64,000 nucleotides of DNA from Clostridiales bacterium. Its GTDB lineage: Bacteria; Bacillota; Clostridia; Oscillospirales; Oscillospiraceae. Positions 3,493 to 56,241 of the stretch are shown here, piece after piece. The DNA lies in assembly GCA_029265405.1 (NCBI GenBank), contig JAJUJI010000005.1:62001-126000 (forward strand). The letters are read 5' to 3'. Below the pieces are notes generated by a model. That model did no database searches, was not told the DNA's origin, and was given only the letters and a program-made list of their open reading frames with translations. Position 1 is the first letter of the stretch, and each line of letters starts with the position of its first letter. Made by a program: the position numbers and the translations under genes.

Positions 3493-4254
3493 TTGGCCAA
3501 ATATCGCAATACGGTCGAATTTGCAGTGAGCGGCGACAGGGCCTTGTTCTCCGACCCGGTTACTCGCGTCGGCGGCGAAAAAACCAGCTATTACGTACCG
3601 ACGTATGAGGCCCTAAAGGGTATTGTTTCCTCAATTTACTGGAAACCCACGATAGTATGGATTATCGATGCGGTAAGAGTGATGAACCCGATTCAGACGG
3701 CTTCCGAGGGTGTTAGAACGCTTAATTACAACGCCTCGAAAGGCAAAAATGATCTGTCTATCTACACTTATCTCATCAACGTCAAGTATCAGGTGCGCGC
3801 TCATTTTATCAGAAATGAAAACCGCCCAGAGCTTTTTCATGATTATGACGGCAGCAACGAGCATAAGCATCACAACATAGCGCGAAGAATGATCAAGTCC
3901 GGGGGAAGAAGGGACATTTTCCTCGGTACGCGGGAATGCCAGGGCTATGTCGAGCCCTGCGTATTCGGAGAAGGCCCCGGCGCATACGACGGCATAAACG
4001 AGCTGACCCTTGGCTACATGCTGCACGGCTTTACCTATCCCGATGAAGCAGTGCGCGTAGAGGAAAAAGGGCGCCTTGCTCTGCGTTTTCACAATGTCGT
4101 CATGCGAAAGGGCATAATCGAGTTTCCGGCTCCGGAGGAAATACCCGAAAAGGACAGGCGCATACTTCACAAAATGTCCGTCAAGCCCTTTGGCAATAAG
4201 CACGGCAATTTTATTGGCATTGGCGAATTCACAGACGAGGAGGCGAGCGAATGA
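3493..4254 (+). CDS. cas5c: type I-C Cascade subunit and crRNA endoribonuclease Cas5c
   Basis: About 253 residues from a TTG start at 3493, placed 8 bases after AAAGGAGG. The in-frame ATG at 3487 sits only 2 bases from that site. In subtype I-C there is no Cas6; Cas5c cleaves the pre-crRNA and caps the 5' handle. The family's FLGTREC-like block is present. A Lys-His pair (K125-H126) and tyrosines Y33/Y34 are plausible equivalents of the catalytic Tyr/Lys/His known from characterised Cas5d enzymes; this mapping is inference. The stop overlaps the cas8c start as ATGA. Confidence 0.92.
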   Translation: MAKYRNTVEFAVSGDRALFSDPVTRVGGEKTSYYVPTYEALKGIVSSIYWKPTIVWIIDAVRVMNPIQTASEGVRTLNYNASKGKNDLSIYTYLINVKYQVRAHFIRNENRPELFHDYDGSNEHKHHNIARRMIKSGGRRDIFLGTRECQGYVEPCVFGEGPGAYDGINELTLGYMLHGFTYPDEAVRVEEKGRLALRFHNVVMRKGIIEFPAPEEIPEKDRRILHKMSVKPFGNKHGNFIGIGEFTDEEASE

Positions 4255-6338
4255 GCTGGGCATCTTCGCTATACAATTTGTATGAAACCAATTCCTGGCG
4301 CGCCGGGGAGGTGGAGGACTGGAACGGCCGTCAGCTTATGCTTCTGCCTGTTTGCCATACGACCGTGAACGCCCAAATTGAAGTTTTTATTGACAGCAGC
4401 GGAAGCTTTTTGTACGCACGGACGCTGGGAAAAAAAGAACCGTCGGAAACGATCGCGCCGGCGACAGAAAAGTCGTCGTCACGCACGAGTACCGCTGCAG
4501 CGCCTCATCCCTTGTTTGACAGTCTTAGATATGTTGCCGGAGACTTTCTTGAAAGGGTTGCTTTTGAGAGCGTTTCGGAAAAAAAGGAGCAAGGCGAAAA
4601 GGCTAAAATTGAAAAAGGCTTCACAGATTACCTTGCGTTTCTTGGCGAATGGTGCAATTCCGCGTACTCTCACCCGAAGGTCTGCGCCGTACACAGCTAC
4701 GTAAGCAAAAAGGCTCTCATGAGCGACCTAATAAAGCAAGGAAACATCATTAAAACAAACGAAGAAGGCCGCGCGCCGCTGGAACAGAAAATAAACGGCG
4801 TGGAGCTAAAAAAAGCCGTAGTCCGCTTCCGAGTCATGACAAGCACCCCCAGCTTGCCGGAAGAGATGCTCCGGGATTCCGTCAAGTCCAGCGGCAGCGA
4901 CATCTGGTTGGACAAGTCCGTCCAGCAAAGCTATGCAAACTTTTATTTTTCACGGCTCTCCATGACTGACCTATGCTACCTTAGCGGCAAAAGAACCGTA
5001 GTAGCGGCCTTTCACCCCAAGCAGATTCGCTTCAACGGTGATGGAGCCAAGCTATTTTCGGCAAATGATGACTTAAATTTCACTTATCGCGGCCGCTTCA
5101 AAACAAAGGATAAAGACAGCGGCTACAACGAGTCAGTATCAATAGGCTATGAAACCTCGCAGAAAATTCATAACGCGCTTAAATGGATTATAAGGAGGCA
5201 GGGCTATTTAAAAGACGGAGTTTGCATAGTTGTTTGGGAGAACGCCTTGAACTGCATTCCGGAGTTTTATCAAAGCGCAGCGTACATTATCGAGCAAACG
5301 ACGGCTGAGGAGGAAGCCATCGACGAAAGCAAAGCATGGCTGTTAGGCCAAGAGGAGCAGGAGACTGGCGAAACCAATTACGCGGCGGCAAAGGACTTCA
5401 ACGCCGCTATCGACGGTTATTCGGCAAAGCTGGGCGATCAGTCCAATATGGTCATCATCGCCCTGGCAAGCGCTGGCCCCGGCCGGCTTGCCCTGACGTA
5501 TTTCAAGGAGCTGGAAACCTCGACCTATTTGAAGAACATACGTCTGTGGCACGAAAGCTGCCTGTGGCGGCATGAGTATTATAAAGGAATAAAATTTTGC
5601 CAATACGAAGGCATGGCATCCTTGAGCGAGACAGCAAGGGCTTTGTACGGTAGGGAGCGGCGCGAGAGCAACGGCTCCAAGCGTCTGGAATTGCGTACCA
5701 TCGGAGAGCGTGATAATCAGAAAGCACCTATGCTTATATCGACTTATGAGCGTCTGCGCCCCTGCATAATTGAAAACGCCAGGGTTCCTTATGACATGGT
5801 CCGATCCGCCGTTTTGAAGGCGTCCAATCCCCTTGCCTACGAAAGCAGCTTCCTCTATCTCCGCGTCCTCCACATCGCCTGTTCTCTTGTTAAACGTCAT
5901 TATTGGGAAAAAGGAGCGATATACGGCATGGAGCTTGATACGACATGCAATAACAGAAGCTATCTTTTCGGGCGGCTGCTTGCCGTCGCCGAAAAAATAG
6001 AGCGCAGCACCTATAACAGGGAGGAAAACCGTTATACAAACGCGGAAAGGTACATGCAGCAGTTTGCCCAGACGCCTTTTAGGACATGGCTCATAATTCG
6101 CAAGAGCATCTGCCCGTATTTATTAAAGCATAATCTCATCGTCAGAGACAAATATAAGGATCTTCTTGGGGAAATAGAAATGATGTTCCTTGACGGCGAC
6201 TTTGAATCCAAAGAAGCCTTGGATGGAAGGTTCCTTCTTGGTTATGACTCCCAGCGCTGCGCGTTAAAGTCAAGGGAGAAGGACAGGTTAAACGCCAACG
6301 CTAAAAACATTGATGAAGACAATAAAACGGAGGATTGA
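4251..6338 (+). CDS. cas8c: type I-C Cascade large subunit Cas8c (Csd1)
   Basis: 695 residues, matching the Csd1/Cas8c family (N-terminus MSWASSLYNLYETN, length typical of the family). It recognises the PAM and positions target DNA in the I-C Cascade. Its ATG overlaps the cas5c stop by four bases and its stop lies next to the cas7c ribosome site, so the three effector genes are translationally coupled. A well-placed internal ribosome site near the 3' end probably yields Cas11c (separate entry). GC is low, about 38% at 5161-5220. Confidence 0.93.
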   Translation: MSWASSLYNLYETNSWRAGEVEDWNGRQLMLLPVCHTTVNAQIEVFIDSSGSFLYARTLGKKEPSETIAPATEKSSSRTSTAAAPHPLFDSLRYVAGDFLERVAFESVSEKKEQGEKAKIEKGFTDYLAFLGEWCNSAYSHPKVCAVHSYVSKKALMSDLIKQGNIIKTNEEGRAPLEQKINGVELKKAVVRFRVMTSTPSLPEEMLRDSVKSSGSDIWLDKSVQQSYANFYFSRLSMTDLCYLSGKRTVVAAFHPKQIRFNGDGAKLFSANDDLNFTYRGRFKTKDKDSGYNESVSIGYETSQKIHNALKWIIRRQGYLKDGVCIVVWENALNCIPEFYQSAAYIIEQTTAEEEAIDESKAWLLGQEEQETGETNYAAAKDFNAAIDGYSAKLGDQSNMVIIALASAGPGRLALTYFKELETSTYLKNIRLWHESCLWRHEYYKGIKFCQYEGMASLSETARALYGRERRESNGSKRLELRTIGERDNQKAPMLISTYERLRPCIIENARVPYDMVRSAVLKASNPLAYESSFLYLRVLHIACSLVKRHYWEKGAIYGMELDTTCNNRSYLFGRLLAVAEKIERSTYNREENRYTNAERYMQQFAQTPFRTWLIIRKSICPYLLKHNLIVRDKYKDLLGEIEMMFLDGDFESKEALDGRFLLGYDSQRCALKSREKDRLNANAKNIDEDNKTED
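5928..6338 (+). CDS. cas11c: predicted Cas11c small subunit from internal start in cas8c
   Basis: In-frame ATG at 5928 (codon 560 of cas8c), preceded by AAAAAGGAG ending at 5916, would produce the last 136 residues of Cas8c. Subtype I-C systems are known to make a separate Cas11 by internal initiation at this position, with similar size and a helical, charged composition. The fragment begins MELDTTCNNRSYLFGRL. The SD-to-ATG spacing of 11 bases is slightly long. The call is inferred from the ribosome site and known I-C biology, not from separate homology. Confidence 0.6.
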   Translation: MELDTTCNNRSYLFGRLLAVAEKIERSTYNREENRYTNAERYMQQFAQTPFRTWLIIRKSICPYLLKHNLIVRDKYKDLLGEIEMMFLDGDFESKEALDGRFLLGYDSQRCALKSREKDRLNANAKNIDEDNKTED

Positions 6339-22964: not shown

Positions 22965-25400
22965 ATGAGCTTTATACTTAAGCCTGTCACGGAGCGCGTA
23001 GCGCGCCAGCGCGCCGCCTACAGGAACACCAAGCCCGAGATATGCATAGCGCGCTATAAGATAATAACCGAGTTTTACCGGAGCCATCCCGAGCTGAACG
23101 GGATACTCCGCAGGGCTCTGGCCATGAAGGAGATCTTTGAAAAGATCCCCGTCCGCATAGGCGACGACGAGGTGATAGTCGGGGCCCAGTCCGGCAAATA
23201 CAGGGCCGGCGCTCTCTATCCCGAAAACTGCGTTTCCTTCATCAAGGACGAGATAGGCAGCGGCTCCATACGAACCAGGGACATAGACCCCTACTGGATA
23301 TCGGACGAGGATATGCGCTACGTAAGGGACACCGTGGACTACTGGCTCAAGGGCGAGAGCACCTACGCCAAGACGCTGGCCTATTACCCCGAGCAGTACG
23401 CGCCGCACGACTTCAACGGCGTGACCATGATAGGCCGCATGACGATAAGCGACACGCCGGTCGGCCATTTTGTCGCCGGCTACGACAAGGCCATACGCGT
23501 GGGCTTCAAGGCCATCAAGGAGGAGGCTGAGAAAAAGCAGGCGGAGCTTGTTGAGCAGGGCCTGCCCGGGAACACCGCCAGCCAGTACAATTTCTACCGC
23601 GCCGTGGCCATAGTCTGCGAGGGCATGATAACCCTGGCCAAGCGCTACGCGGCGCTGGCGGCGGAGAAGCTTGCCGCCGAGAAGGACCCGAAGCGCCAGA
23701 AAGAGCTTGAAATGATGGTCGAAACCCTGAGCTGGATCATGGAGAACCCGGCCAGGAATTTTGTGGAGGCCCTCCAGTGCCTCTATTTGTACCAGACCTG
23801 CCTTTGCCTTGAGGCCAACATGCACGGCATAACCTTCGGCCGCGTGGACCAGTATCTGGGCGGCTTCCTTGAGCGCGACCTGGCAAGCGGGGCCATCACG
23901 GAGGACTACGCCCAGGAGCTCATGGACCTGTTCTACCTCAAGGTGGCTGAAATGAACAAGCCCTGGAGCTACGGGGCAACGCAGTCGGCTCCCGGCTACA
24001 CCTCCGGGCAGATGATGTGCATGGGCGGCGTGGATAAGGACGGGAACGACGCCTCAAACAAGGTGACGTACATGATGCTCCAGTCCATGGCCAGGCTGGT
24101 CCTGCACGACCCCCCGCAGTCCCTCAGGATACACAGGAACACTCCGCCGGAGCTTTGGGAGGCCGCGATTGAAACCACAAAAATTTGCGGCGGCATCCCC
24201 ACCTTTGAAAATGACGACGTGATAATACCCAGCCTGCTCAAGCGCGGCTTTACCCTCGAGGACGCGCGGAACTATTCGCCCATAGGCTGCGTGGAGCCGG
24301 GCGGCAACGGAAACGACTGGCCGGCCTGCGGCGGCACCGGCAGCATGTCCTACATAAACCTGCCGAACGCCCTGCTTTTGGCCATAAACGACGGCAGGCT
24401 CCCCATGCCCCTCTTCGGGGGCGGGCCGGGCGGCCAGGCGCCTCGCGTCGGGCTGCCAACCGGCCATCTTTACGAGATGGAAAGCTTCGACGAGGTGCTC
24501 GAGGCCTATAAAAAGCAGGTGGACTTCTTCCTCAAATGGCACGTGCTGGTAAACAACAACGCCGAGTACGTCACACGCGAGCTGCTGCCCCTCCCGGTGG
24601 TTTCGGCCACGATGGAGGGCTGCATGGAAAAGGGCATGGACGTCATGCACGGCGGGGCCAAATACAACGCCAGCGGCATTCCCGGCATAGGCATAGGCAA
24701 CATAGCCGACAGCCTGTTTATGATAAAGCATCTCTGCTTCGATACGAAGAAATGCACCACCCGCGAGCTGTACGACGCCCTCATGAACGATTGGAAGGGC
24801 TACGAGGATCTGCAGTCCTACATCAAAAACGAGTGCCCGCACTACGGCAACGGCGAGCCGGAGGTGGACAAGTGGGCGGCCTGGGCGTCGGAGAAATACG
24901 CCGAAACCGTGACCTCCTTCACCGGACCCAGGGGCCGCTACACCGCCGGCCTCTTCCCCGTAACCGCCAACGTCATGTTCGGCAAGCTGACGGGCGCAAC
25001 GCCCGACGGCCGCAGCGCCGGGGTGCCTCTGGCCGACGGCATATCGCCCGTGCAGTCGATGGACCGTAGCGGCCCCACGGCCATAGTAAGGTCCGTCTCC
25101 GCCATAGAGCAGACCTCCTTCGCCAACGGGACTCTGCTGAACATGAAGTTCAGCCCCTCCTGCCTGAGCGGAACCGACGGCATAAGGAAGCTGAGCCAGC
25201 TTGTCCAGACCTATTTCGACCTCGGCGGCATGGAGCTGCAAATCAACGTCATCTCGGCCGACACGCTCAGGGACGCCCAGAAGCGCCCGGAGGAGTACAG
25301 GGACCTTGTGGTGAGGGTGGCCGGCTTCTCGGCCTATTTCGTGGAGCTGCACATCACCGGCCAGAACGACCTGATAAGCAGGACGGTTCTGGAAATGTAG
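22965..25400 (+). CDS. glycyl radical enzyme of the PFL/dehydratase family
   Basis: 811 residues. The glycyl-radical signature RVAGFSAYF places the radical at G787, 25 residues from the end, and the thiyl-radical cysteine is C442 in SPIGCVEPGG. The GCVE arrangement is that of dehydratase or C-N/C-S lyase members (glycerol, choline, hydroxyproline, isethionate types), not of true pyruvate formate-lyase, which has two adjacent cysteines. The substrate cannot be chosen from sequence alone. No activating radical SAM enzyme, microcompartment gene or proline-reductase gene is adjacent. The gene is flanked by its own promoter and terminator. Confidence 0.88.
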   Translation: MSFILKPVTERVARQRAAYRNTKPEICIARYKIITEFYRSHPELNGILRRALAMKEIFEKIPVRIGDDEVIVGAQSGKYRAGALYPENCVSFIKDEIGSGSIRTRDIDPYWISDEDMRYVRDTVDYWLKGESTYAKTLAYYPEQYAPHDFNGVTMIGRMTISDTPVGHFVAGYDKAIRVGFKAIKEEAEKKQAELVEQGLPGNTASQYNFYRAVAIVCEGMITLAKRYAALAAEKLAAEKDPKRQKELEMMVETLSWIMENPARNFVEALQCLYLYQTCLCLEANMHGITFGRVDQYLGGFLERDLASGAITEDYAQELMDLFYLKVAEMNKPWSYGATQSAPGYTSGQMMCMGGVDKDGNDASNKVTYMMLQSMARLVLHDPPQSLRIHRNTPPELWEAAIETTKICGGIPTFENDDVIIPSLLKRGFTLEDARNYSPIGCVEPGGNGNDWPACGGTGSMSYINLPNALLLAINDGRLPMPLFGGGPGGQAPRVGLPTGHLYEMESFDEVLEAYKKQVDFFLKWHVLVNNNAEYVTRELLPLPVVSATMEGCMEKGMDVMHGGAKYNASGIPGIGIGNIADSLFMIKHLCFDTKKCTTRELYDALMNDWKGYEDLQSYIKNECPHYGNGEPEVDKWAAWASEKYAETVTSFTGPRGRYTAGLFPVTANVMFGKLTGATPDGRSAGVPLADGISPVQSMDRSGPTAIVRSVSAIEQTSFANGTLLNMKFSPSCLSGTDGIRKLSQLVQTYFDLGGMELQINVISADTLRDAQKRPEEYRDLVVRVAGFSAYFVELHITGQNDLISRTVLEM

Positions 25401-51938: not shown

Positions 51939-52859
51939 TCAGCGCCTTCCGGCGTCGATGTACCTGCAGGCGGCGACGGCCGCCGCGGCCCCGTCGGACA
52001 CCGCCGTCGTAAGCTGCCTCAGGCTCTTGGCCCGGCAGTCTCCCGCCGCGAATACGCCCTCGCGGCCGGTGAGGCAGTCCTCCCCGCAGGCTATATAGCC
52101 CGCTGCGTCAAGGGGCACAAGCCCGCGGAAGGCCTCGTTCTGCGGCTCCATCCCTATGGCGACAAAAAGCCCGTCGCAGCGCAGCTCCCTTGAGGGGCCG
52201 CCCTGCCTCGGCCTCAGCCTTACGCCCCTGAAGGCTCCGCCCTCCTCTATCAGGCCCTCCACCAGCGTGCCCGTCACGGCGCGCACGTTGGGGCGGGCCA
52301 GCAAAAGCTCCAGAGCCCTTTTCTCGGCGGTGAAATAGTCCAGGTCCTGGATTATCACTACCTCCCCGCATACATCGGCAAGCAGCATGGCCTCCTGAAC
52401 GGCCGAGTTCCCTCCCCCGGCCACGGCCACGACCTTGCCCCTGTAGAAATCCCCGTCGCAGACCGCGCAGAAGGAAATGCCGTTTCCTATATATTCCTTT
52501 TCCCTGTCTATGCCCAGCAGCCTGTGCCGGACCCCGACGGCAATCACGGCGGCCCGGCAGGGATACTCCCCGCCCTCCTCGGTGACGACGAGCTTTTCCG
52601 CCCCGCGGTCCCTTATTCCGGTCGCGGCCGCAAATTCAATCTCCGCCCCCTGCGACAAGATCTGGTCGAGGAACCTGTCGGCAAACTCCTCGCCGCTCAT
52701 CCGCTTGGTCCCGGGATAGTTTTCCACCTTGGGCGAATAGGCTATCTGGCCCCCGAAGCCCTGCTTTTCAAGCACCAGCACCTTCTTGTTGTTTCTGAGC
52801 GCGTAGAGCGCAGCCGTCATTCCCGCCGGCCCTCCGCCTATTACGACTATGTCATGCAT
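51939..52859 (-). CDS. trxB: thioredoxin reductase
   Basis: 306 residues, FAD/NADPH-dependent. FAD motif GGGPAGMTAALYA at the N-terminus, redox pair C131-x-x-C134 in CAVCDG, NADPH motif GGGNSAVQEA, and C-terminal FAAGDCR. ATG 52859 begins MHDIVVIGGG; an upstream extension would be encoded by a hairpin. It lies immediately downstream of nrdD, whose C-terminal redoxin domain is a possible electron acceptor. Confidence 0.92.
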   Translation of the reverse strand: MHDIVVIGGGPAGMTAALYALRNNKKVLVLEKQGFGGQIAYSPKVENYPGTKRMSGEEFADRFLDQILSQGAEIEFAAATGIRDRGAEKLVVTEEGGEYPCRAAVIAVGVRHRLLGIDREKEYIGNGISFCAVCDGDFYRGKVVAVAGGGNSAVQEAMLLADVCGEVVIIQDLDYFTAEKRALELLLARPNVRAVTGTLVEGLIEEGGAFRGVRLRPRQGGPSRELRCDGLFVAIGMEPQNEAFRGLVPLDAAGYIACGEDCLTGREGVFAAGDCRAKSLRQLTTAVSDGAAAAVAACRYIDAGRR

Positions 52860-52895: not shown

Positions 52896-52938
52896 GGCGT
52901 TAAAGCCGGGCATGGCCGCCATGCCCGGCTTTAACGCC
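52896..52938 (-). terminator. 18-bp hairpin between nrdD and trxB
   Basis: Perfect stem (52896-52913 with 52921-52938), 7-base loop, no T-run. It may limit read-through or protect the nrdD transcript. Confidence 0.5.
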
Positions 52939-52946
52939 TCCGCCCG

Positions 52947-55352
52947 CTAAACGGCCCTTTCGGCCAGCGAGGCGAGATAGCTTTTGATTTCCGGCACTCC
53001 GTAATATTTCTCGAAGCCCGCGTCTCCCGCTATGACAAGTGTGGGCGCGCCCTTTACGCCGTAGAGCTCCACCAGATCCCTGCGCTCCTCGGCTATGACC
53101 TTTTCATACTCGAAGCCTGACTTCAGCATCTGCGCTTCTGCGGCCCGGCAGTTGGGGCAGGTAAGCCTGGAAAAGAATATGGCGCGCTTCTTGCCTTCCG
53201 CGGCCGGCCGCGAGAGCCCGTCCCGCTCCGCGCCGGCCTCCTTCGCGCCCCGCCCGGCCGGGCTGCCGCCCTTAAATTTGGACTCGGCTATGTTGTAGAC
53301 CTTGCGCTGCCTGAATTCCTGGGCCTTGCCGTCGTTCCAGTTCTGCACGGGCCTGTAGTAGCCGGTGATGCGGGAGTATACCTCCGTCCTTTCTCCGCAG
53401 ACGGGGCAGACATAGCGTTCTCCGGATATATAGCCGTCGTTTTTGCATACCGAATAGGTGGGCGACAGCGTGTAGTAGGGCAGCCTGTAGTTCTCGGCTA
53501 TCTTCCTTACAAGGGAGGCCGCCGCCCGCCAGTCGGGCAGCTTTTCCCCCAGGAAGGCGTGGAACACGGTGCCGGAGGTGTACAGCGTCTGCAGCTCGTC
53601 CTGTATGTCAAGAGCGGAGAAAATATCCTCGGTATAGCCCACGGGCAGGTGGGAGCTGTTCGTGTAGTAGGGCGTGCCGCCCTTTTCCGCGGCGGTTACA
53701 ATGTTCGGGTACCTTTCCACGTCGTGCTTGGCCAGGCGGTAGGCCGTGGCCTCGGCCGGGGAAGCCTCGAGGTTGTACAGGTCTCCGTACTTCTCCTGAT
53801 AGTCGGCCAGCCGCTCCCTCATATGGTTCAAAACGTCCTTTGTAAACTCCTGCGCCTCGCGGCAGGTCAGATCCTTTCCAAGCCAGCGGGCGTTCAGGCA
53901 GGCCTCGTTCATGCCCACAAGGCCTATGGTCGAAAAATGGTTTTCAAAGGTGCCCAGGTAGCGCTGGGTATAGGGGTACAGGCCCGCGTTGAGCAGCTCG
54001 GTTATCACGTTGCGCTTTACCTTCAGCGAGCGGGCGGAAATGTCCATCATCCTGTCCAGCCTTGTGTAGAACTCCCGCTCGTCCCTGGAAAGGTAGGCTA
54101 TGCGCGGCATGTTTATCGTCACTACGCCGACAGAGCCGGTGCTTTCGCCGGAGCCGAAATAGCCGCCGCTCTTCTTGCGCAGCTCGCGCAGGTCCAGGCG
54201 CAGCCGGCAGCACATGCTCCGCACGTCGGAGGGCTCCATGTCGCTGTTGATATAGTTTGAAAAATACGGGGTGCCGTATTTTGCGGTCATCTCAAAGAGC
54301 AGGCGGTTGTTCTCGGTGTCCGACCAGTCGAAATTCCTCGTGATGGAATAGGTGGGGATGGGGTACTGGAAGCCTCTGCCGTTTGCGTCGCCCTCGATCA
54401 TGATCTCTATGAAGGCCTTGTTGATGAGATCCATTTCCTTCTGGCAGTCCTTGTAGCAGAATTCCTGCTCCTTTCCGCCCACTATGCAGGGCAGCTCTGC
54501 CAGGTCGGCCGGCACCGTCCAGTCCAGGGTTATGTTGGAAAAGGGAGCCTGAGTGCCCCAGCGGCTGGGGGTGTTGACGCCGAAAACAAAGGCCTGTATG
54601 GCCTGCTTGACCTCCCTGTAGCTCAGGTTGTCGGTCTTTACAAAGGGGGCGAGGTAGGTGTCGAAGGAGGAAAAGGCCTGGGCGCCTGCCCATTCGTTCT
54701 GCATTATGCCGAGGAAGTTGACCATCTGGTTGCAGAGTGTAAGCAGGTGGCTGGCCGGCTTTGAGGTTATCTTCCCCGTCACTCCCCCGAGGCCCTCCTG
54801 GATGAGCTGGCGCAGGCTCCAGCCGGCGCAATAGCCCGTCAGCATGGACAGGTCGTGTATGTGTATGTCCGCGTTTCTGTGCGCTCCGGCTATCTCCTCG
54901 TCGTACACCTCGCTGAGCCAGTAGTTGGCGGTTATGGCTCCGGAGTTGGAGAGTATCAGGCCGCCCACCGAGTATGTCACGGTGGAGTTTTCCTTGACGC
55001 GCCAGTCGTTGTTTTTCAGGTAGTTGTCCACGGTCTTTTTGAAGTCAAGCATGGTCGCCCCGACGTTGCGGAGCTTTTCGTGCTGCTTGCGGTAGAGTAT
55101 ATAGGCCTTGGCCACGTTCTCATAGCCGCCGCGCGACAGGACGGATTCGACGCTGTCCTGTATATCCTCGATGGATATCAGCTCGTCCTTGATCTTCGGC
55201 TGGAAATCGGCCGTCACCATAATGGCCATGTAGTCTATTACGCTGTCGGTATAATTCGTCTGCGTGGCGTCGAAGGCCTTCTTCATGGCGGACGCGATTT
55301 TGGTCAGGTCAAAATCGACTATCCTTCCGTCCCTTTTTACTACCCTGTACAT
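52947..55352 (-). CDS. nrdD: anaerobic ribonucleotide reductase with C-terminal redoxin domain
   Basis: 801 residues. An N-terminal ATP-cone (1-90, YRVVKRDGRIVDFDLTKIASAMKKAF), the class III catalytic barrel, Cys-rich zinc region (YVCPVCGER) and glycyl-radical motif RITGYYRP with G664. The usual end (QEFRQRKVYN) is followed by a linker and a thioredoxin/glutaredoxin-like domain with C732-P-N-C735 and a GAPTLVI cis-proline. It reduces ribonucleotides to deoxyribonucleotides without oxygen. trxB lies next; nrdG is just upstream. Confidence 0.93.
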   Translation of the reverse strand: MYRVVKRDGRIVDFDLTKIASAMKKAFDATQTNYTDSVIDYMAIMVTADFQPKIKDELISIEDIQDSVESVLSRGGYENVAKAYILYRKQHEKLRNVGATMLDFKKTVDNYLKNNDWRVKENSTVTYSVGGLILSNSGAITANYWLSEVYDEEIAGAHRNADIHIHDLSMLTGYCAGWSLRQLIQEGLGGVTGKITSKPASHLLTLCNQMVNFLGIMQNEWAGAQAFSSFDTYLAPFVKTDNLSYREVKQAIQAFVFGVNTPSRWGTQAPFSNITLDWTVPADLAELPCIVGGKEQEFCYKDCQKEMDLINKAFIEIMIEGDANGRGFQYPIPTYSITRNFDWSDTENNRLLFEMTAKYGTPYFSNYINSDMEPSDVRSMCCRLRLDLRELRKKSGGYFGSGESTGSVGVVTINMPRIAYLSRDEREFYTRLDRMMDISARSLKVKRNVITELLNAGLYPYTQRYLGTFENHFSTIGLVGMNEACLNARWLGKDLTCREAQEFTKDVLNHMRERLADYQEKYGDLYNLEASPAEATAYRLAKHDVERYPNIVTAAEKGGTPYYTNSSHLPVGYTEDIFSALDIQDELQTLYTSGTVFHAFLGEKLPDWRAAASLVRKIAENYRLPYYTLSPTYSVCKNDGYISGERYVCPVCGERTEVYSRITGYYRPVQNWNDGKAQEFRQRKVYNIAESKFKGGSPAGRGAKEAGAERDGLSRPAAEGKKRAIFFSRLTCPNCRAAEAQMLKSGFEYEKVIAEERRDLVELYGVKGAPTLVIAGDAGFEKYYGVPEIKSYLASLAERAV

Positions 55353-55412: not shown

Positions 55413-55467
55413 ATCATAGCACGGCCCCAAAAAGCTTGTCAATAACAAATCACAATATATTGTGTGA
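55413..55467 (-). promoter_or_regulatory. nrdD promoter with NrdR box
   Basis: Minus strand: TTGACA (55437-55442), 18-base spacer, TATGAT (55413-55418). Upstream of the -35 is the palindrome TCACAATATATTGTGTGA (55450-55467), matching the NrdR-box consensus with AATATATT core. One box is visible; two are usual. Confidence 0.82.
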
Positions 55468-55530: not shown

Positions 55531-56241
55531 TTAATCCGCCCCGCGCAGCTCGGCCGAGCCTGCGTGCCGCCGCAGCTCGCCCAGCAGCCGCTCCAGCTCG
55601 GGCCCGGAGAAAGCGCTCATCTCCGGCGCCCGCCCGCGCGCGCCAAGCAGCGCCCCCGAGTCCTTGAAGCTTTGTATATATATCTTGTCGGCCTTTTTCA
55701 GCCACGCGCCGATCTCGGCGAAATCCGCAGGCTCATGTATGCCCTTCACCGCCGTTATCCTGAATTCGTAGGGAATTCTACCCTCCATGAGCAGGGCCGC
55801 GCTTTCCTCTATGGGCGCGAGGTCTATCTCCGGCAGGCCCGCCGCCCCGGCGTACCCGGAGGGCGAGGACTTGATGTCCATGGCCGCGTAGTCTATGAGC
55901 CCGTTTTCAAGCAGCTCGCGCAGCATGGCCGGGCGGCTTCCGTTTGTATCCAGCTTGACCGAATAGCCTAGCTTCTTTATTTTTTCCGCAAGCTCCGGCA
56001 GGTCGTCATGGATCGTCGGCTCGCCGCCGGATATGCAGACCCCGTCAAGGACCCGGCGGCGCTTTTCCAGAAAGGCCGCCAGCTCCTCCGGGCTTATGGC
56101 GGGCTGCTTTTCCGGCTCCAGCACCAGCGAGGGGTTGTGGCAGAAGGGGCAGCGGAAATTGCAGCCGCCGGTAAAGACCGTGCAGGCGGTGCGTCCCGGG
56201 TAGTCGAGCAGGGTCAGCTTTTGAAGTCCGTTGATGAGCAT
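55531..56241 (-). CDS. nrdG: anaerobic ribonucleotide reductase activase (radical SAM)
   Basis: 236 residues. The radical-SAM cysteines C27, C31, C34 in CNFRCPFC and GGEPTIHDD are clear. It generates the glycyl radical on NrdD. Length and the LINGLQKLTLLDYPG N-terminus match the NrdG2-type activase. ATG 56241 is used; upstream in-frame codons lack a ribosome site. It is upstream of nrdD in the same orientation, with the NrdR box between. Confidence 0.9.
   Translation of the reverse strand: MLINGLQKLTLLDYPGRTACTVFTGGCNFRCPFCHNPSLVLEPEKQPAISPEELAAFLEKRRRVLDGVCISGGEPTIHDDLPELAEKIKKLGYSVKLDTNGSRPAMLRELLENGLIDYAAMDIKSSPSGYAGAAGLPEIDLAPIEESAALLMEGRIPYEFRITAVKGIHEPADFAEIGAWLKKADKIYIQSFKDSGALLGARGRAPEMSAFSGPELERLLGELRRHAGSAELRGAD

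Follow-up and report, generated by a model that had tools for sequence, protein, structure and literature searches.

For most class III ribonucleotide reductases (RNRs) with a double cysteine, PMC9669993 holds that the reductant, formate or a thiol protein, cannot be read from sequence alone. Enzymes with an MCCR-type finger loop are described there (section 2.5) as having what is needed to use either formate or thioredoxin. The finger-loop methionine is tied to formate chemistry. The NrdD of Neisseria bacilliformis has been demonstrated to use a thiol reductant, thioredoxin (PMC4390871, PMC4493059, PMC9669993). A redoxin may also be fused to an RNR component, as in the Grx::NrdB fusion of Facklamia ignava, an efficient RNR reductant (PMC6187632). 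The survey in that report kept only Grx matches above the Pfam gathering score; it gives one line to a grx::nrdD fusion from a RefSeq search, a single, unstudied case in Lachnospiraceae bacterium TWA4 (PMC6187632).

Here we describe an NrdD with a C-terminal redoxin, encoded next to a thioredoxin-reductase-like flavoprotein (TrxB) in a Clostridiales genome. The window referred to below is the whole stretch of 64,000 nucleotides that was analyzed. We consider it likely, with a probability of roughly 0.65, that the tethered redoxin is recharged by a dedicated TrxB and re-reduces NrdD after turnover. The fusion makes the question of the reductant addressable within one polypeptide, via two cysteines.

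The nrdD locus

Three genes are arranged on the minus strand of the window in the order nrdG, nrdD, trxB:

55531..56241, minus strand: nrdG, radical SAM activase (TIGR02495 NrdG2, 196.1 bits, above the cut-off)
55450..55465, minus strand: palindrome resembling an NrdR box, ACACAATATATTGTGA (motif match)
55413..55442, minus strand: sigma-70-like promoter, TTGACA-18-TATGAT (11/12 matches)
52947..55352, minus strand: nrdD, class III ribonucleotide reductase with a C-terminal redoxin fusion, 801 amino acids (open reading frame, Pfam, curated models)
51939..52859, minus strand: trxB, thioredoxin-reductase-like flavoprotein with CAVC and GGGNSA, and with QDLDYFT replacing HRRxxxR (open reading frame, models, alignment)

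The end of nrdG lies 178 nt upstream of nrdD. The longest open reading frame of trxB begins at 52922, which would leave 24 nt between nrdD and trxB, and the likelier start at 52859 leaves 87 nt. An earlier note on this DNA, made from the sequence alone, had described nrdG as preceding nrdD and trxB as directly following it, and both gaps agree with that description. In a GTDB scan with at least 593 confirmed NrdD relatives, of which the best 80 were analyzed, nrdG was upstream of nrdD in 73 of these 80 loci. Among 155 distinct NrdD relatives (131 fused to a redoxin and 24 unfused), nrdG was upstream in 117 of the 131 fused loci and downstream in 14 of the 24 unfused loci.

Both the promoter-like site and the palindrome are located between nrdG and nrdD, so nrdD and trxB may have their own promoter, separate from that of nrdG. 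Boxes of this kind were scored against what we take to be the NrdR consensus. Of the 80 loci, 37 had a site matching at least 11 of its 13 positions in the 300 nt upstream of nrdD, versus 3 of 800 mononucleotide shuffles. These sites are compatible with NrdR control of nrdD-trxB.

The NrdD core and its active site

NrdD matched PRK08270 with 1122.9 bits (cut-off, 548). The features of the core are as follows:

55077..55346, minus strand: ATP-cone domain, residues 3-92 (PF03477, 1e-20)
53295..54992, minus strand: NRDD catalytic domain, residues 121-686 (PF13597, 1.9e-188, model positions 1-562 of 562)
54828..54830, minus strand: C175, conserved beta-A active-site cysteine (aligned with C125 of T. 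maritima)
54204..54215, minus strand: finger loop MCCR, residues 380-383 (MGCR in E. coli NrdD)
53766..53768, minus strand: E529, aligned with E495 of T. maritima NrdD, the proposed proton-donor glutamate (Tyr in E. coli NrdD)
53361..53363, minus strand: G664, glycyl radical residue, in SRITGY (motif and alignment)

With its NRDD domain, glycyl radical loop, zinc cysteines and NrdG partner, the protein is a class III RNR. G664 of the glycyl radical loop and the zinc cysteines C636, C649 and C652 were kept in all 155 relatives. Position 639, presumably the expected place of the fourth zinc cysteine, is Asp here and is not conserved among the relatives.

The roles of C125 and E495 in T. maritima NrdD have been described (PMC4493059, PMC9669993). 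The NrdD2 subtype is recognized by a third cysteine in xCCR together with the active-site glutamate, and here these are found as MCCR at residues 380-383 and E529. The formate-only NrdD1 subtype has neither; C381 and E529 are both present in the window protein, and the corresponding residues of the formate-using control, E. coli NrdD, are G and Y. The enzyme is an NrdD2 by the criteria of PMC4493059, in which some NrdD2 members also carry the finger-loop Met. Judged by C381 and E529 plus M380, the active site is neither formate-only nor thiol-only; it permits the use of a redoxin without proving it. The earlier note had suggested looking for a lack of formate-subtype residues, with a formate-type active site counting against its proposal. 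The site is not formate-type in the sense of NrdD1, because the third cysteine and the glutamate are present, but M380 is retained.

The same note suggested that thiol-driven reduction operates in place of formate. The data do not establish this part of its proposal, because the residues in question also include M380 and are all found equally in the 24 unfused relatives, C381 partly by selection. M380, C381, C382 and E529 were identical in 131/131 fused and 24/24 unfused relatives, with the reservation that the 155 compared sequences had been picked for xCCR plus the glycyl motif, so that conservation of the cysteine pair is partly a product of selection. Because these residues are the same in both groups, fused and unfused enzymes cannot be told apart by the active site, and a proposed active-site difference between them was rejected.

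In the main rival explanation, formate may still be the turnover reductant, with the redoxin and TrxB serving either in activation, by keeping cysteines reduced for radical installation by NrdG, or in repair after exposure to oxygen. The presence of M380 in every fused and unfused relative favors this explanation, as do the relatives that share this active site but carry no fusion and the activating role of thioredoxin for the E. coli class III RNR, as given in the review PMC4390871. We nevertheless regard it as unlikely, given the third cysteine and glutamate of the thiol-using subtype and the lack of any pyruvate formate-lyase (PFL)-like enzyme above the formate C-acetyltransferase cut-offs in this genome, though formate could come from elsewhere.

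One NRDD gene was found in the genome (completeness, 98.81%), and no class I or class II RNR large subunit was found in it by a search whose control matched in 11 of 14 genomes. The genome also encodes eight PFL-like glycyl radical enzymes, none of which reached the formate C-acetyltransferase cut-offs of PRK09983 and TIGR01774. TIGR01255, which we take to be the usual pyruvate formate-lyase model, was not listed at E ≤ 1e-100 for any of the eight. Other sources could supply formate for NrdD. One of the PFL-like enzymes is encoded in the window itself (22989-24983, plus strand; G000:C9:84989-86983), with TIGR01774 as its best model (600.4 bits; cut-off, 678.2). Another of the eight, L120 (G000:C19:16787-18763), matched (2S)-3-sulfopropanediol dehydratase with 1011 bits (cut-off, 1000), which suggests sulfonate use.

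The C-terminal tail

The tail that follows the catalytic domain has the following features:

53193..53294, minus strand: linker, residues 687-720 (low confidence in the AlphaFold model; varies among homologues)
52950..53192, minus strand: redoxin domain with thioredoxin/glutaredoxin fold, residues 721-801 (profile, AlphaFold, structure searches)
53148..53159, minus strand: CPNC redox motif, residues 732-735 (motif, alignment)
53043..53045, minus strand: P770, the redoxin cis-proline position, in GAPT at residues 768-771 (alignment)

A tail beyond G664 with a CPNC site and a cis-proline had been noticed earlier, and both are present in the open reading frame at 52947-55352. When the whole of NrdD was searched, the Pfam Glutaredoxin model matched residues 726-777 (E = 0.0016) with 19.0 bits, short of the cut-off of 22.9. 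The earlier note had proposed a domain search of residues 700-801; the tail domain alone scored 24.0 bits with this model, above the cut-off, and AlphaFold confidently modeled it as a redoxin fold. All 70 aligned homologous tails matched PF00462 at E ≤ 0.01, and C732, P733, C735 and P770 were invariant in the same 70 tails. Among solved structures, a profile built from the tails had its best match (4.2e-10) in the protein disulfide oxidoreductases and also matched thioredoxins and NrdH (6.2e-06).

The AlphaFold model of the isolated tail domain had a pLDDT of 93.9 and a pTM of 0.82, with secondary structure elements in the order E-H-E-H-E-E-H. The best Foldseek hits of this model were thioredoxins (1uvz, thioredoxin 2; 3.8e-05; TMq, 0.74). 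Z scores from VIA were 10.7 for SspA/GST N-domains, 10.3 for thioredoxin and 9.7 and 9.5 for NrdH, a spread of about 1 Z. No named redoxin subfamily exceeded its curated NCBIfam cut-off; the best was YruB (TIGR02196, 26.2 of 88.55 bits), and the NrdH model (TIGR02194) reached 16.9 of 85.75 bits. The tail domain is thus a complete redoxin of the thioredoxin/glutaredoxin fold, with CxxC and cis-proline. It belongs to the thioredoxin superfamily and is glutaredoxin/NrdH-like by sequence, the VIA scores being too close together to pick a subfamily.

The model of full-length NrdD, made from 27 similar sequences, had a mean pLDDT of 65.0, with residues 682-720 below 50. Only the low-confidence linker and the confident redoxin were taken from it, as the core is too weak to place the redoxin relative to the active site. 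The predicted linker would allow movement of the redoxin; the full-length model gives nothing reliable on its reach.

Distribution of the fusion

The redoxin tail was present in all of the best 80 GTDB loci (of at least 593 relatives). Among 97 fused tails, the redox motif was CPNC in 96 and CPKC in 1, and the finger loop was MCCRL in all 97. One further sequence, L164 (G424), was counted as fused: its redoxin carries CVNC at the CPNC position, and the 1.5 kb covered there contain no trxB. In an even sample of the same class, the NrdD match ran into a redoxin in 54 of 343 genomes, not counting that of the window, compared with 12 of 348 genomes in a sample of the phylum. For G351, G720 and G424 the decision came from reading the locus; the other rows were counted from the aligned range or from loci that were read. 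Of 60 near relatives, 13 carry the fused gene at full length, and in 10 of these 13 no second NrdD was found at E ≤ 0.001.

Six relatives with 72-80% identity (L167, L168, L185, L186, L187 and L190) have no redoxin, and none of them has trxB downstream. They provide ready-made natural controls. The FastTree tree has four changes of fusion state, all of them forced by supported branches, so on this tree the fusion appears to have been lost or gained repeatedly. At least several lineages within the subclade of the window NrdD never had the redoxin or have lost it, so the NrdD core can work without it. One of the six, L185 (G267:C1:1461000-1468500), is 74% identical; its nrdD lies at 3928-6081 on the minus strand, and the protein ends in ...DDSCTLC. 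This C-terminal CxxC is reminiscent of the cysteine tails found in class I and II RNRs.

A tail that transfers no electrons, being either a sensor of redox state or a dead relic, would be in keeping with its loss in some relatives. However, CxxC and the cis-proline were kept in 131/131 fused sequences, in contrast to the freely varying linker, and we consider a sensor or relic very improbable.

The neighboring thioredoxin reductase

Of the 80 best GTDB loci, 59 have trxB next to nrdD on the same strand, 5 have it further off, 12 lack it and 4 have no room for it. Among loci with room, 93 of the 124 fused ones had trxB at most 1.5 kb downstream (83 of them at most 150 nt away), versus 0 of 22 unfused ones; the other 31 fused loci had no trxB within 1.5 kb. 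The raw Fisher test of fusion versus trxB gave a P value of 1.7e-12 (with L164 then scored as unfused), a figure that is not evidence, as the rows are related. A tree-corrected test of the same association was not significant: there were 4 independent pairs, of which 1.6 on average went the same way and none went the opposite way. Much of the contrast between fused and unfused loci is shared ancestry.

TrxB scored 291.5 bits against TIGR01292, the curated NCBI thioredoxin-reductase model, which is below the cut-off of 343.45. The protein keeps CAVCD (CxxC) and GGGNSA (GxGxxA). Where NADPH-dependent thioredoxin reductases have HRRxxxR, it reads IIQDLDYFTAE; the controls at this site were E. coli TrxB, with LIHRRDGFRAE, and E. 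coli AhpF, with LLEFAPEMKAD, which also lacks the arginine pair. We take AhpF to be an NADH enzyme. The earlier note had assumed an ordinary NADPH-using TrxB, an assumption at odds with a protein that has GxGxxA without HRRxxxR. On these residues the electron donor of TrxB is probably not NADPH; NADH is a guess from the loss of the HRRxxxR motif.

Assignment as a ferredoxin-dependent flavin thioredoxin reductase (FFTR) was rejected, because GxGxxA is kept whereas an FFTR needs both NAD(P)H motifs to be absent. In a phmmer search TrxB matched 4zn0 (M. mazei TrxR) with 215 bits, versus 113 and 108 bits for 6gna and 6gnd, which we take to be FFTRs.

The 72 TrxBs beside nrdD comprised 50 of the Q type seen in the window TrxB, 19 with HRRxxxR and 3 others (one of which, L080, is nearly of the Q type). 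Two of the 5 TrxBs further from nrdD were of the Q type. Of 17 TrxBs encoded elsewhere in the relatives, none was of the Q type (12 HRR, 5 other). In a quick tree from which the motif columns were omitted, the 77 nrdD-linked TrxBs and the unlinked L210 formed one group of 78 (SH-aLRT, 97), with 16 of the 17 other TrxBs outside it. Within one subgroup of 60 (SH-aLRT, 97) were 51 of the 52 Q-type TrxBs, and HRRxxxR seems to have been regained there. This tree was made without bootstrap and has some long branches.

A second TrxB-like gene in the genome, L112 (G000:C4:9342-10229), adjoins trxA and has LVVRSE-IRGE instead of HRRxxxR; as the nrdD-linked TrxB also lacks the motif, the standard NADPH motif is missing from both TrxBs of the genome. 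A search for thioredoxins in the genome gave three matches, of which the two that were read are WCGPC thioredoxins.

It is conceivable, though quite improbable in our estimate, that the redoxin is the turnover reductant while its main reductase is the general thioredoxin system or some other flavoprotein rather than the neighboring TrxB. The 31 fused loci without a nearby trxB and the TrxB-like gene adjoining trxA speak for such an arrangement. Against it, the nrdD-linked TrxBs form a group of their own and stand beside nrdD in most fused loci.

Proposed electron path

The electron path that we infer, in its order and in its service to turnover, starts from a double-cysteine class III RNR in which turnover would leave a disulfide in the active site. 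By analogy with N. bacilliformis NrdD, this disulfide would join C175 and a finger-loop cysteine. The C-terminal redoxin, held on a flexible linker right after the glycyl radical loop, would reduce it in each turnover, and the downstream TrxB-like flavoprotein would in turn reduce the CPNC pair of the redoxin.

Reduction of NrdD by a tethered redoxin is backed by the fold, the invariant CxxC and cis-proline, the spread of the fusion, the trxB neighbor and the separate TrxB group. Further backing comes from the NrdD2-like active site, from NrdD being the sole RNR found, from the PFL-like enzymes falling below the formate C-acetyltransferase cut-offs and from the precedent of a Grx fused to NrdB that reduces its RNR (PMC6187632). 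It is weakened by the retention of M380, the similarity of fused and unfused active sites and the redoxin-less relatives. Other points that weaken it are the fused loci without trxB (31/124), the tree-corrected trxB association, the second TrxB-like gene and two WCGPC thioredoxins of the genome, and the pLDDT of the full-length model (65.0). The self-contained, thiol-driven class III reductase of the earlier note is therefore retained in its fusion, its neighborhood and its general idea, but not in its exclusion of formate, given M380.

If this reading holds, many gut Clostridia depend for dNTP synthesis on an unusual flavoprotein and not on formate or NADPH. A bolder scenario, offered tentatively and rather more likely wrong than right, is that a large clade of Clostridia has a self-contained class III electron module, in which the tethered redoxin swings into the active site and a dedicated TrxB lineage that feeds it has exchanged NADPH for a different donor, NADH being the likeliest. 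In that case the tethered redoxin would play the part in class III that C-terminal cysteine tails play in class I and II RNRs, and dNTP synthesis would be coupled to fermentative NADH instead of formate or NADPH.

Comparison with known systems

The TWA4 grx::nrdD fusion is probably of the same kind as that in the window, judged by taxon. The whole window protein scores below today's Pfam cut-off, so the spread of the NrdD fusion may have been missed in the survey of PMC6187632. In the open-licence literature that was searched, no description of a clade-wide NrdD-redoxin fusion was found. As far as was found, a layout that is common in these Clostridia has been named in print once (PMC6187632).

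TrxB shares its fold family, the CxxC in CAVCD and GxGxxA with NADPH-dependent thioredoxin reductases (E. coli TrxB; M. mazei TrxR, 4zn0), but differs in having QDLDYFT in place of HRRxxxR and in scoring under the TIGR01292 cut-off. FFTRs are likewise nonstandard TrxBs in Clostridia (PMC10880999); they have neither NAD(P)H motif, whereas the window TrxB retains GxGxxA.

N. bacilliformis NrdD (an NrdD2; NrdDh3 in RNRdb) resembles the window NrdD in its double-cysteine finger loop and active-site Glu. As far as it has been described, it differs in having SCCR, without Met, and a separate thioredoxin system, whereas in the window enzyme the loop is MCCR and the redoxin is part of the NrdD polypeptide. 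The F. ignava Grx::NrdB, like the window NrdD, is a redoxin fused to an RNR component. It belongs to class I and has a glutathione-fed, N-terminal Grx on the radical-generating subunit, whereas the window enzyme belongs to class III and has a C-terminal redoxin on the catalytic subunit, encoded beside TrxB.
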